From positions 62,001 through 126,000 of the forward strand of contig JADZAP010000040.1 of the NCBI GenBank assembly GCA_020852705.1: a stretch of 64,000 bases of DNA. The letters run 5' to 3'. The notes under the pieces were generated by a model that saw nothing but the letters and a program-made list of their open reading frames with translations, had not been told where the DNA came from and searched no databases. Position numbers and translations under genes: made by a program. The stretch is from Ignavibacteria bacterium (lineage in GTDB: Bacteria; Bacteroidota; Ignavibacteria; Tepidaquicellales; OLB5). Below, piece by piece: positions 56,635-61,292 of this stretch (its first letter is position 1; the number at the start of each line of letters is the position of its first letter).

Positions 56635-57495
56635 CTATTTATCAGGAAGCTTATATCTTTTTTCTTTTACACCAAAGAAATAACTAACACCTGCACTTAC
56701 CGTAAAATAGGCAAATTGTTTCCATGCGGCATATTCAATTATTTCAGGAGGGGCATCATCGTTTAAACCAACTTCGGTAATAGGCGGGTTAACTGATTCA
56801 TCAAGAAACGGAGTTTCAGATTTTTTAAGAAGCAAATTAGCATGAGTAAATCTAAGTCCAAAGTTAAAACCAAAATCTTTATTAATTCCGCTTTCCAATC
56901 CGAGAAATACCTGATAACCAAGTCTTAAACTGCTGGTGATCTTAATTTCAACTCTATTGTTATCGGGGTTTATGAGTTCAGATTTTCCGCTTATTACACT
57001 TAATAGGGGATTAATCCCCAGAAAATATTTAATTTTGTGTGTTGGAGTAAAATTATACTCAATACCAACTCCGCCATTAAAAGAATTATAAGAAACTTTA
57101 CCTTCCTCAGTGTTTTTTGCAATCAGGTTACTTTCAAACCTATCAAAGCCGGAAATAAAATCCAGCCAGAAGTGTCCTTTTTTTTCAAGCGGTAACTTAC
57201 CTATAAGATTAAAACCGTAACCGTTTCTTGCACCAAAATTTTTACCGGTTAAAAAATCATTACGGCTGAAACCTCCATTATGGCTTGTCAGCTCCATTGC
57301 TCCGGAATTAAATCCTCCATTAAAGTGAATTATAAATTTCGGAACAGTCATGGATTTGACTATTGTTAATATTCTGGATTTTTCAGTTTTTATTGTATCT
57401 ACTTTTATTATATAAGTCGTATCTTGTGCCTTAACATTAAGGCACAGCATTAATAACAATAATACAGAAAATATTTTGAATAGAATTTTAAACAT
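56635..57495 (-). CDS. Predicted outer-membrane beta-barrel, type 2 (module 1, copy A)
   Basis: 286 residues with a signal peptide (ends KAQ), then a predicted beta-barrel of about 12 strands. Family features are KNFGARNGYGFNLIGKLPL, FDRFESN, GKVSYNSF, GVGIEYNFTP and a C-terminal SYFFGVKEKRYKL. It most resembles the barrel at 58939: both have YNFTPxH(K/R)(I/F)K and FFGVKEKRYKL. It is the last gene of the unit SPOR lipoprotein-barrel-barrel, 15 bases after the upstream barrel. Function is unknown. It could be a structural, adhesive or transport barrel. Confidence 0.75.
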   Translation of the reverse strand: MFKILFKIFSVLLLLMLCLNVKAQDTTYIIKVDTIKTEKSRILTIVKSMTVPKFIIHFNGGFNSGAMELTSHNGGFSRNDFLTGKNFGARNGYGFNLIGKLPLEKKGHFWLDFISGFDRFESNLIAKNTEEGKVSYNSFNGGVGIEYNFTPTHKIKYFLGINPLLSVISGKSELINPDNNRVEIKITSSLRLGYQVFLGLESGINKDFGFNFGLRFTHANLLLKKSETPFLDESVNPPITEVGLNDDAPPEIIEYAAWKQFAYFTVSAGVSYFFGVKEKRYKLPDK

Positions 57496-57510
57496 TAAAC
57501 AGGCAGATAA

Positions 57511-58353
57511 TTATTTTTTATTTTTTAAACCAATATAAAAATTAACACCGGCATAAAAAGAACTGAACATAAATTGTTTCCATCCGGAATAAGGTATAGA
57601 TTCACCGTTCACTATATCATCATTCAGATATGTTTCGTTTATTGATGTTGATACCTGTGATTTTTTGCCTAATATATTAGCATGTGTAAGTCTGTAACCT
57701 AAATTAAATCCAAATTTATCATTTACTGCATATTCAAATCCAAGAGTTAAACTTAACCCAAACCTTACAGAATTTTTGATTTTTACATCAAAATCAGTAC
57801 TATCTGTAGCAAGCACCGCATTACCGCTTATCATATTTGCCTGAAGTTCAATGCCGGCAAATGGTTTGAATTTTCTTGCGGGATTAAAATTATTTTCGAT
57901 ACCTAAACCAAAACTAAATACATTGTATGAAACCTTTCCTTCTGGTGATTCTTCAATAACAAAATTACTTAAAAACCTGTTATATCCGGTTGAAACATTC
58001 AATCTTACATTTCCGGCTTTATGTAGTTTTATTTTGCCGGTAAGCATAACACCAAAACCATATCTTGTGCCAAAATTAGCTCCGCTAACAAATTCATCCT
58101 TGCGAAATAATGTATTTTCACTTCCAGCCATATCAAGATGACCGATATTGTAATTAAAACTTAGCTGAATTGTTGCAATTGGTGCAACACCCGTTCTTAT
58201 GGAATTAATAATATTACTGGGCGCAATGGATGTGTAAAAAGTATCTTTAGGGTTATAATGAGTTGAGTCTTCACCTTGTGAAAAGGTAACTGATGTAACT
58301 ATAAAAAGAATCAAAATTAATATGTATGAATTTCTTTTTATCATTAATTGCAT
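57511..58353 (-). CDS. Predicted outer-membrane beta-barrel, type 1 (module 1, copy B)
   Basis: 280 residues, signal peptide (ends TFSQ) and a barrel of the same family as its neighbours. It has GANFGTRYGFGVMLTGKIKL, AGNVRLNVSTGYNRF, VSYNVFSFGLGIENNFNP and YAGVNFYIGLKNKK. It is closest to the barrel at 59767, with which it shares GNVRLN(V/I)S, VSYNVF(S/A)FG(L/V)GIEN and QAN(M/I)I(S/N)G. Its ATG at 58353 follows the SPOR gene's TAA directly (TAAATG), so translation is probably coupled. A second ATG at 58344 is possible. Confidence 0.75.
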   Translation of the reverse strand: MQLMIKRNSYILILILFIVTSVTFSQGEDSTHYNPKDTFYTSIAPSNIINSIRTGVAPIATIQLSFNYNIGHLDMAGSENTLFRKDEFVSGANFGTRYGFGVMLTGKIKLHKAGNVRLNVSTGYNRFLSNFVIEESPEGKVSYNVFSFGLGIENNFNPARKFKPFAGIELQANMISGNAVLATDSTDFDVKIKNSVRFGLSLTLGFEYAVNDKFGFNLGYRLTHANILGKKSQVSTSINETYLNDDIVNGESIPYSGWKQFMFSSFYAGVNFYIGLKNKK

Positions 58354-58764
58354 TTAGAATTTTCTGGTTATAACAAATGCATCAGAATATCCTTTAGAGC
58401 GGACATACTCTGTATATTTTACAGCTTCTGAACGGTTATTAAATTTACCAATCCTTATTTTATGAAGACTGCCCGAATATTCATGATATACTCCGCTGCC
58501 TAAATCACCTACCGCCTGATTATAAAATCTTTGAAAATTTTCATTTATTGAAAATGCACCAATCTGAATGGTAAATGTATATCTTTCAGAATTATTTTTA
58601 TTTTCATCTATGGTGATCTTTTTTAAAGTATCAATTTTAATTGTTTTTTCGGTATAATCAACCTTATACTGCTCAACTTCATACTCACCCGATGTACAAG
58701 ATGAAAAATAAAAAGCTGCTAAAAATATAATTAACAGCAATAATATTTTTAATGTTTTCAGCAT
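58354..58764 (-). CDS. SPOR-domain lipoprotein (module 1)
   Basis: 136 residues from the ATG at 58764. A lipoprotein signal (FSSC, Cys23) is followed by a short linker and a C-terminal SPOR domain (about 60-135) with FTIQIGAFSINENFQRFYNQ and HKIRIGKFNNRSEA. SPOR domains bind septal peptidoglycan strands without stem peptides. The residues after the cysteine (CTSGEYEVE) resemble those in the other two lipoproteins of the cluster. An ATG further upstream exists but gives an extra 8 residues before the signal. Confidence 0.8.
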   Translation of the reverse strand: MLKTLKILLLLIIFLAAFYFSSCTSGEYEVEQYKVDYTEKTIKIDTLKKITIDENKNNSERYTFTIQIGAFSINENFQRFYNQAVGDLGSGVYHEYSGSLHKIRIGKFNNRSEAVKYTEYVRSKGYSDAFVITRKF

Positions 58765-58938
58765 AATATCTAAATCAATATAAGCCATTATCTTAATAAA
58801 AACAAGACTTGTAAAGGGTTAATTTAAAATAACTATATAAGTAGTTAATAAATAAAGGGGTTGGATAAATTTGAAATTTTAGCACTTAAATTTTTTAAAT
58901 TTAACAATTTTAGCTAACCAAAATAGGAGTTTTGTAAG

Positions 58939-59757
58939 TTAGTTAAGTTTATATCTTTTTTCTTTTACTCCAAAATAAAAATTAACCCCTGCCATAATAC
59001 TGTAGAAAGAAAAATTCTTATTGTTATTACCTGCTAATTTTAAATTAGGGTCAGCTTTATCCCTTAATTGAAATTCTGTTTCTGAATTAGTACCTTTTGA
59101 ATTTTTGTAAAATGCGTTAGCGTTAATTAATCTTGCAGCTACATTAAGCCCAAAAGAATCGTTTATATAATATTCAGAACCTATTGATAAGCCATAACCA
59201 ATCCTGAAGGAATTTGTAATTTTATATTCTTCATTATAGGGCGGTCCAATTCCACGATTTTCAAACCATATTTTTACTTTACCGTTTATCATACTTGCAT
59301 TAAGTTCTGCCCCAATATATAATTTAAATCTATGTCTGGGAGTAAAATTATATTCCGTACCAAGTCCTGCGGTATAACAGTTATAATTTGCAAACCCATT
59401 ATCGGCAATAGTTTCCTTATCTCCAAAAGTATAAGAAAGTATCCTGTTGTATGTTAAAGATTGTGTGAATCTAAAACTCCCTCTTTTATTTAAAGCCAGC
59501 TTTGAAATTGCACTTACCCCATAACCTTTATCGGCACCAAAAGATTCACCATCATAAACAACTTTGGATTGGTAATCATCGTTATATGCCCCTGAGAGTT
59601 CAAATACAGATTGGTTATAATCAATATCAAACTGAAGAGTATATTTTGGAGTTGAACGAACAACCATATATCTTCTGATTATTGTTTTCTGAGCTTCTAA
59701 TTTTACCATATCAACAGCTAAAAGTAAAATCAGGGCTATAATAATCTTATTCTTCAT
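58939..59757 (-). CDS. Predicted outer-membrane beta-barrel, type 2 (module 2, copy C)
   Basis: 272 residues, signal peptide (ends LEAQ) and barrel. It has ESFGADKGYGVSAISKLAL, NRILSYTFG, GLGTEYNFTPRHRFKLYIG and MAGVNFYFGVKEKRYKLN. It shares with the barrel at 56635 the YNFTP and KEKRYKL segments, so these two occupy the same position in the two modules. It carries insertions in loop regions (for example around ENRGIGPPYNEE). The gap to the upstream barrel is 9 bases. Confidence 0.75.
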   Translation of the reverse strand: MKNKIIIALILLLAVDMVKLEAQKTIIRRYMVVRSTPKYTLQFDIDYNQSVFELSGAYNDDYQSKVVYDGESFGADKGYGVSAISKLALNKRGSFRFTQSLTYNRILSYTFGDKETIADNGFANYNCYTAGLGTEYNFTPRHRFKLYIGAELNASMINGKVKIWFENRGIGPPYNEEYKITNSFRIGYGLSIGSEYYINDSFGLNVAARLINANAFYKNSKGTNSETEFQLRDKADPNLKLAGNNNKNFSFYSIMAGVNFYFGVKEKRYKLN

Positions 59758-59766
59758 ACTTTAAAA

Positions 59767-60624
59767 TTATTGTTTAAACTTGTAAATAATATCATTTACA
59801 CCAAAATAAAAATTCATACCAAGGTAAAATGTGGTAAAAATAAAATTCTTAAATCCGCCGAATTCTATTTCACCTGTATCATCTTTTTTATCTCTAAGAG
59901 GTACCTCATCAGGGTTATCACTTGTTTTAGTTGATTTAAAAACCTGGTTAGAATTTGTGAGTTTAATTCCAAAGTTACCGCCAATCTTATTATTGAACAT
60001 ATACTCAAAGCCCATATAAACATTGTAACCAAGTCTGAAAGAATTTTTTATTTTTACATTTCTTGTAATACCTGTAGCCTGACTAGTTATTTCAGCTTTA
60101 CCGTTAATTATATTTGCCTGAATTTCACCGGCAATATATGGTTTTAATCTGAAGCTTGGATTAAATGAATTTTCTATTCCAACCCCAAAAGCAAAAACAT
60201 TATAACTAACATATCCGAATTTTGATTTACTAGAAAGAAAACTGCTGGTAAAACGGTTATAGTTTCCTGATATATTCAATCTGACATTGCCTTCTCTATG
60301 AAGTGGAAGTTTTCCAATAACAGAAATTCCATATCCGTTTTTAACACCAAAGTTCAATCCGCTTGAAAACTGTGCTGAATCAAAAACAGTATTAAAATTA
60401 GAAGAAAGCTCAGCCATACCTAAATTTATACCGCCTGAGATTTGCAGAGTAAATCTGGGGGGATTTTGTATTTTATAAGCGTTTTTTAGTTTAGCTCCGG
60501 TTGATTTAAACTTTGTTGTATCTTCTTTATTTGTATTTTCTATTTTATAAGAGCCGGTTCCGCAGCCAATTAAATAGGGTAAAATTGAAAATAAAAATAC
60601 AATAATAAAATATCGTAAATTCAT
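59767..60624 (-). CDS. Predicted outer-membrane beta-barrel lipoprotein, type 1 (module 2, copy D)
   Basis: 285 residues. Unlike the other three barrels, the signal ends in a lipobox (LIGC, Cys21), followed by CGTGSYKIEN and a spacer, then the barrel: LNFGVKNGYGISVIGKLPL, EGNVRLNISGNYNRF, VSYNVFAFGVGIENSFNP, FYLGMNFYFGV. It resembles the barrel at 57511 most closely. The lipid anchor on a barrel-like protein is unusual and may show that a lipoprotein N-terminus was gained by recombination with a SPOR-type gene. An OMP85-independent surface lipoprotein is another option. Confidence 0.72.
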   Translation of the reverse strand: MNLRYFIIVFLFSILPYLIGCGTGSYKIENTNKEDTTKFKSTGAKLKNAYKIQNPPRFTLQISGGINLGMAELSSNFNTVFDSAQFSSGLNFGVKNGYGISVIGKLPLHREGNVRLNISGNYNRFTSSFLSSKSKFGYVSYNVFAFGVGIENSFNPSFRLKPYIAGEIQANIINGKAEITSQATGITRNVKIKNSFRLGYNVYMGFEYMFNNKIGGNFGIKLTNSNQVFKSTKTSDNPDEVPLRDKKDDTGEIEFGGFKNFIFTTFYLGMNFYFGVNDIIYKFKQ

Positions 60625-60818
60625 GCTTGTTATAGATTCCCTACTAATTTTTTTAATGTATTTTTTTAAAAAATTTCTTTTGAACCTTAGCTAAATATAC
60701 TCGTAAAAAACAATACTTTCAAGCATTTACCTAAATCTTACTAATGCTACATTAAATTAAGAAAGATAAAAAATAAAATTAAATAAAATTTTTTTTAATT
60801 ATGTCTTTTTAAATTAAA

Positions 60819-61292
60819 TTATTTACTTTCACTTTTCATGGTTTGCTCAAGATAAAATGAATCTGAGTAACCCATTTCCCACAACTTGTATAGAAAAGCC
60901 AATGCTTCATCTTTTGTGCTGAAATTTCCCATTCTTATTTTATATAATCCATCAATATTTTTAACCGATATATCCATGTTTGCAAATTTTCTTTTAACTC
61001 TATCTGAATACCGTGAAGCATTACGTTCTTCATTAAATGCTCCAAGCTGTACACAAAAAGATTTTGTAACTGAAAGTTTTTCGCTAAATGTATTTTCAGT
61101 TGGTTTTACATCTTCATTTTTTTCAGTAATATCACTTTTAATTTCACTAAAAGGCGGTGTTTCTTGTTTTGGTTCTTCTTTAATTTCTATAGGTTCTTCA
61201 ACTTCTACTATATCATAAATTGGGGAGTTGCATCCAAAACAGAATGCCAAAGTTGCAATGAATATTGCTATTATTAAATAATTTTTAAACAT
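60819..61292 (-). CDS. SPOR-domain lipoprotein (module 2)
   Basis: 157 residues. A lipoprotein signal (CFGC, Cys21) is followed by an acidic, proline-containing linker (about 25-75) and a SPOR domain (about 78-150) with FCVQLGAFNEERNASRYSDR and YKIRMGNFSTKDEA. An AGGGAG ribosome-binding site lies upstream of the ATG. It begins the second SPOR-barrel-barrel unit, 194 bases before the barrel lipoprotein. The Cys-x4-Tyr-x-Ile pattern (CNSPIYDIV) matches the other lipoproteins of the cluster. Confidence 0.82.
   Translation of the reverse strand: MFKNYLIIAIFIATLAFCFGCNSPIYDIVEVEEPIEIKEEPKQETPPFSEIKSDITEKNEDVKPTENTFSEKLSVTKSFCVQLGAFNEERNASRYSDRVKRKFANMDISVKNIDGLYKIRMGNFSTKDEALAFLYKLWEMGYSDSFYLEQTMKSESK

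Follow-up and report, generated by a model that had tools for sequence, protein, structure and literature searches.

A conserved six-gene locus encoding predicted SPOR-domain lipoproteins and small outer-membrane barrels in a family of Ignavibacteria

The DNA analyzed here is a stretch of 64,000 nucleotides from an Ignavibacteria bacterium (contig JADZAP010000040.1, positions 62,001 to 126,000; hereafter the window, to which all positions refer). Six consecutive minus-strand open reading frames (ORFs) are present between positions 56635 and 61292, encoding in order a SPOR-domain lipoprotein (S1), two barrels (B1a and B2a), a second SPOR-domain lipoprotein (S2) and two further barrels (B1b and B2b). 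The source genome (G000) has a size of 2.9 Mb and is 97.6% complete. Its named near relatives, such as Chlorobi bacterium OLB5 and Ignavibacteria bacterium UBA2360, are metagenome-assembled genomes (MAGs). An initial annotation of the window had described these ORFs as two SPOR-barrel-barrel modules, and our ORF check bore out their order, strand and places. The locus is real, conserved and, as far as searched, undescribed, with components of known kinds.

S1 (60819-61292) encodes a protein of 157 amino acids with a lipobox cysteine at position 21 (GC-NSPIYDIVEVEE) and a C-terminal SPOR domain (Pfam PF05036; E 7.4e-13, 49.1 bits at a cut-off of 21). S2 (58354-58764; lipobox SC-TSGEYEVE) matched the same family with E 2.3e-8 and 34.7 bits, and comprises 136 amino acids when counted from position 58764. 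This start, given in the initial annotation, is preferred over that of the ORF caller (58788) because the orthologs begin at the 58764 methionine; the upstream ATG is out of frame in one relative. S1 also matched the SPOR structure PDB 1x60 (E 2.8e-5). The SPOR domain of RlpA contacts denuded glycan through Q270, A273, F274 and R309 (PMC6895207). The corresponding positions are conserved at the locus (Q82, A85, F86 and R120 in S1): across 30 aligned SPOR proteins of the family, Gln, Ala and Phe/Tyr were each found in 30/30 and Arg in 28/30. Pfam detected SPOR alone in S1 and S2 (157 and 136-144 amino acids) and no DPBB lytic transglycosylase domain, and matches to the NCBIfam RlpA model were far below its cut-off. 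The linker between the lipobox Cys and the conserved Gln measures 61 residues in S1 (to Gln82) and 44 residues in S2 of the window; if unfolded, linkers of this length would be long enough to span from outer membrane to wall. On these features, S1 and S2 are predicted to be lipidated, sorted to the outer membrane and located at the septum, with their SPOR domains bound to denuded glycan. A candidate amidase able to make denuded glycan is encoded in the genome. In three genomes an extra SPOR gene, S1x, lies between S1 and B1a (L027:3828-4325, L032:9895-10434 and L034:8725-9243); the glycan-contact Arg is lost in two of these copies, and one copy is without the lipobox Cys.

The four barrel genes are B1a (59767-60624), which follows S1 after 194 nt (60625-60818), B2a (58939-59757), and the paralogs B1b (57511-58353) and B2b (56635-57495). 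All matched Pfam OMP_b-brl (PF13505), B1b alone above the cut-off (E 5.7e-10; B2b, E 0.0018, below). AlphaFold (AF2) models of B1a (pLDDT 68.7, pTM 0.68) and B2a (pLDDT 72.8, pTM 0.66) each have eight long strands, and their nearest structures are OmpA, NspA and OmpW, with Z scores of 14-17 for B1a and 17-20 for B2a. The same fold is assigned to B1b and B2b by homology. Structural search among viral models matched other small barrels alone. According to Pfam, the C-terminal peptidoglycan-binding domain of OmpA (PF00691) is absent from all four barrels, and both models end within ~10 residues of strand eight. B2a, with conserved KRYM..VRS at the N-terminus and EKRYKL at the C-terminus of the alignment, has an ordinary signal peptide, as do B1b and B2b. 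B1a carries a lipobox of its own (Cys21, GCGTGSYKIE), in which G20, C21, Y26, I28 and E29 are invariant in 14 orthologs; the distance from the Cys to strand 1 is exactly 37 residues in 14/14. B1a is thus a predicted lipoprotein and probably lipidated. Barrels of the OmpW/OprG, NspA or OmpX type are not known to carry a lipid anchor.

The segment following the cysteine appears to be common to S1, S2 and B1a. A profile built from B1a, covering 28 residues from one before the Cys and thereby excluding nearly all of the signal peptide, ranked the S1, S2 and S1x proteins of the locus over all unrelated lipobox ORFs in a set of 49 (E 0.001 to 0.13). Typical forms are GCNSPIYEIVE (S1), GCSSGEYDVDE (S2) and GCGSGSYKIE (B1a), giving the motif C-x-S/T-x-x-Y-x-I/V. 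A DNA pattern for this motif produced many chance matches in two genomes, and upon inspection of 44 matching loci and the locus itself the motif stood behind a signal peptide only in B1a and S1 of the locus. Given the short motif and the small set, this evidence is suggestive. The common peptide may be a sorting or docking signal, or may reflect N-termini of common origin.

The initial annotation had raised the case of SPOR genes lying beside such barrels in no other genome. That case did not apply: with breaks at contig ends taken into account, the order S1-B1a-B2a-S2-B1b-B2b recurs throughout the family to which the window belongs (15 genomes). A single contig carries the complete or nearly complete block in G000, G001, G002, G005, G006, G008, G009, G010, G011, G012 and G013, while the block is split over two contigs in G003 and cut by contig ends in G004 and G007. 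G008, an assembly of two contigs that is 100% complete, carries the full six-gene set. The block sits between lon and the pfkB-mtnA pair, flanks that are not neighbours in the sister family, and it stayed whole while some relatives gained genes on both sides. Three relatives have a gene for a large protein (~720-750 amino acids, start NGWIWQNPLPQG or similar) between S1 and pfkB (L029:8917-11079, L033:8790-10961 and L062:4487-6730). Each barrel slot forms one clade with 98-100% support (B1b 100/99, B2b 100/99), S2 forms one clade, and S1 forms one clade with 93/94, indicating that all six genes have been retained for long. Among 197 genomes of the class, the six-gene order was seen in no genome outside this family, the sister family included, and none of the other families yielded close relatives of the barrels (E < 1e-25). 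SPOR lipoproteins of the S1/S2 type are widespread in the class. A class-wide SPOR-barrel system was considered and rejected, as SPOR lipoproteins of other families adjoin deoC, folD, prmA, a Big_5 (Ig-like-domain) gene and others. In the sister family, folD and prmA are immediately preceded by two SPOR lipoprotein genes in tandem; deoC is close by and barrels are absent (L092:4022-6613, L093:5451-8113 and L094:5329-7937). In another family of the class, a SPOR lipoprotein gene adjoins an unrelated FadL-type barrel in 3/4 loci and is separated from it by one gene in the remaining locus, a hint that the pairing of a SPOR lipoprotein with a barrel may recur with unrelated barrels. There, the SPOR gene directly follows the FadL/OMPP1 barrel gene (L083:4564-6053, L095:4243-5988 and L096:5602-7340), and an MlaD-domain gene lies further on (domain checked in L083).

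Intrinsic terminators, defined as a hairpin followed by a T-run and scored against 60 dinucleotide shuffles, divide the block. A terminator scoring above every shuffle follows B2a in 11/13 family genomes and B2b in 10/12, its arms varying between genomes yet staying complementary. In three close relatives (G002, G008 and G012) a terminator is also located directly after S1. The window's own B2a terminator is weak, its score being reached by 6.7% of shuffles, and no terminator was seen there after S1. The gap between B2a and S2 (58765-58938), which holds the terminator in most family genomes, contains a nearly invariant block directly upstream of S2. Downstream of this gap the genes are tightly packed, with the S2 stop abutting B1b (0 nt) and 15 nt between B1b and B2b, and the B2b terminator, which outscores all shuffles, is followed by the convergent lon gene. 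Together, the terminators and the short S2-B1b-B2b gaps suggest that the likely transcription units are S1, B1a-B2a and S2-B1b-B2b. The two modules of the initial annotation hold as gene order but describe transcription imprecisely. Upstream of S1, B1a and S2, matches to a promoter motif of the Bacteroidota type (TTG-N18-22-TAnnTTTG) mostly did not exceed those in shuffles.

Related small barrels also occur outside the block. Tandem arrays of three to five adjoin a heavy-metal/copper P-type ATPase gene (L047:2361-7029, L046:4257-8978 and L036:4484-6996), and possibly constitute a copper-linked outer-membrane set; the array includes a secreted CopZ/MerP-like protein, and LptG lies alongside in two genomes. 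In at least two genomes, a lone fifth barrel lies next to, and divergent from, the gene of a small secreted protein carrying a cysteine cluster of the CTCSCDACRNC type (L042:4334-5979 and L040:4037-5685). Two relatives have extra barrels, sisters of B2a, across lon (L032:2065-2883 and L024:4651-6534); the first in L024 is apparently frameshifted near its C-terminus.

The initial annotation had proposed a tandem duplication of the whole SPOR-barrel-barrel unit, an evolutionary question separate from function. The motifs on which it drew are really common within slots (GNVRLN, VSYNVF and QAN(M/I)I(S/N)G in the first; YNFTP and FFGVKEKRYKL in the second), and they favour such a duplication. However, the statement that same-slot barrels are the most alike was not confirmed: in the window, B1b-B2b identity (39.1%) is about that of B1a-B1b (39.3%), and B2a-B2b identity (35.0%) equals that of B2a-B1a (35.1%). 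Within-genome mean identities over the family are 38.9% for B1a-B1b, 37.5% for B1b-B2b and 32.7-34.4% for the other pairs; B2a-B2b (32.8%) is next to the lowest (32.7%), and the best partner of B2b is B1b in 10/13 genomes. The best tree of the locus barrels alone separates first-slot from second-slot barrels, with B1a and B1b paired at 82/61. This split speaks for duplication of the unit, but pairing within modules, at 3.2 log units worse, was not rejected (p-AU 0.32; third pairing, p-AU 0.096), and fixed 2+2 alignment columns favour within-module pairing in three cases and slot pairing in one. With outgroup barrels, the tree took the form (B2a,(B2b,(B1a,B1b))) with weak support (81/49 and 90/83), so that the second-slot barrels formed no clade. 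The solitary fifth barrel fell beside B1b and the extra barrels beyond lon (G003 and G011) beside B2a (100/99), placements that also speak against a simple doubling of the unit. Likewise, in a SPOR tree with outgroups from the class, S1 joined S1x (96/90) and not S2, with S1+S2 not rejected (p-AU 0.107). Thus, of the slot-paired tree that had been predicted, the first-slot half was recovered weakly and the second-slot half was not. Whole-unit duplication is one among several possible histories behind the slot-to-slot relationships; it has partial support, and we consider it rather unlikely.

Searches of titles and abstracts on SPOR, barrel and outer membrane, or on Ignavibacteria barrels, returned no such SPOR-barrel system, and no paper joining SPOR with Ignavibacteria was found, in agreement with the earlier remark that no system of this composition had been described. 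The closest known proteins share single features with the locus. OmpA and Pal/OmpA-type tethers tie the outer membrane to peptidoglycan, as is proposed for the locus, and OmpA has an 8-stranded outer-membrane barrel; in contrast, the six locus proteins are without OmpA_C, and wall binding would be by separate, denuded-glycan-binding SPOR lipoproteins. RlpA, an outer-membrane lipoprotein, and FtsN, DamX and DedD resemble S1 and S2 in the C-terminal SPOR domain with its Gln/Ala/Phe/Arg contacts, whereas S1 and S2 consist just of lipobox, linker and SPOR domain, without DPBB, and are encoded beside barrels. OmpW/OprG, NspA and OmpX have the fold predicted for the locus barrels, but sequence identity is ~9-21% and B1a has a predicted lipid anchor. 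Finally, barrels of the TolC family that bear a lipid at the N-terminus, and E. coli TolC with its lipoprotein partner (PMC13082787), give precedents both for lipidation of a barrel and for its pairing with a lipoprotein; the fold is different, and a SPOR domain is not mentioned there.

Our preferred reading, held with somewhat less than even confidence, is that of a family-specific envelope locus, a 'split OmpA', in which SPOR lipoproteins hold barrels at the septal wall. S1 and S2 would be outer-membrane lipoproteins whose SPOR domains, at the end of a flexible linker (44-61 residues), grip glycan strands stripped of peptides, the amidase product at the division septum. The outer membrane would hold the four 8-stranded barrels, which are without a peptidoglycan-binding part of their own. 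By providing wall binding in trans, presumably through physical contact, the SPOR lipoproteins would gather the barrels, including the lipidated B1a, at the septum and thereby tie the outer membrane to new wall during cell constriction. A link between peptidoglycan and outer membrane, as suggested in the initial annotation, is plausible given the conserved glycan-binding residues and the predicted lipoproteins S1, S2 and B1a. The intact locus, seen in this family alone among the 197 genomes, its one clade per slot, the conserved glycan-contact residues, the fit of the barrel models to OmpA, NspA and OmpW, the tightly packed and terminator-closed S2-B1b-B2b unit, the common post-cysteine peptide and the presence of an amidase argue, tentatively, for the septal reading as a whole, as do the SPOR genes near FadL-type barrels in another family. 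A more specific form of it appears unlikely to us: that S1, S2 and the lipidated B1a, marked by C-x-S/T-x-x-Y-x-I/V, assemble with the three other barrels into one septal outer-membrane complex reading denuded glycan, as an OmpA divided into barrel subunits and wall-binding subunits, the wall ligand being a different one.

Several observations weigh against barrels held by SPOR lipoproteins. The barrel models, built on 14 and 17 sequences, are of modest confidence. G014 has B1a-B2a-S2-B1b-B2b with no S1 at the locus. In MAG BA9, S1-B1a-B2a is followed by unrelated genes, and B1b and B2b were not found in the genome, reflecting either loss or mis-assembly, which are indistinguishable here. The genome encodes three ordinary OmpA-family (PF00691) wall-binding proteins, which means that the locus would not be the only tether; its role as an OmpA replacement is rejected on this ground. 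The remaining points are those on which the strongest rival draws, namely that the barrels, a locally expanded surface or pore family, and S1 and S2, as septal SPOR lipoproteins of the ordinary kind, are neighbours through inherited synteny and without partnership. As the lon and pfkB-mtnA flanks are equally conserved, plain synteny may account for the shared gene order; the units are set apart by terminators, and S1 probably has its own transcript in some relatives; and both protein types occur apart elsewhere, most SPOR lipoproteins of this type in the class being without a barrel neighbour and related barrels elsewhere, one set beside the copper-type ATPase, being without SPOR genes. Against such mere proximity, nearly every genome has S2 directly abutting B1b within one unit, S1, S2 and B1a have the post-cysteine peptide in common, and the block is whole despite gene gains on its flanks. 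We regard this explanation as a serious one, although it too falls short of an even chance. A reading of the barrels as OmpW/OprG-like small-solute channels or receptors that the SPOR lipoproteins keep at new poles, for transport and not anchoring, is improbable. The near structural matches do include OmpW and OprG (Z 14-18), but barrels of the OmpA type match no less well, and the locus is without an enzyme, transporter or regulator gene.

OmpA, Pal and Lpp are known couplers of the outer membrane to the wall. To our knowledge, how outer membrane and wall are held together during constriction is poorly known outside Proteobacteria, and Ignavibacteria are almost unstudied at that level. The locus provides a small, clear set of parts for testing. 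If its SPOR lipoproteins recruit the barrels, it would represent another outer membrane-wall coupling besides OmpA, Pal and Lpp, with septum specificity built in.

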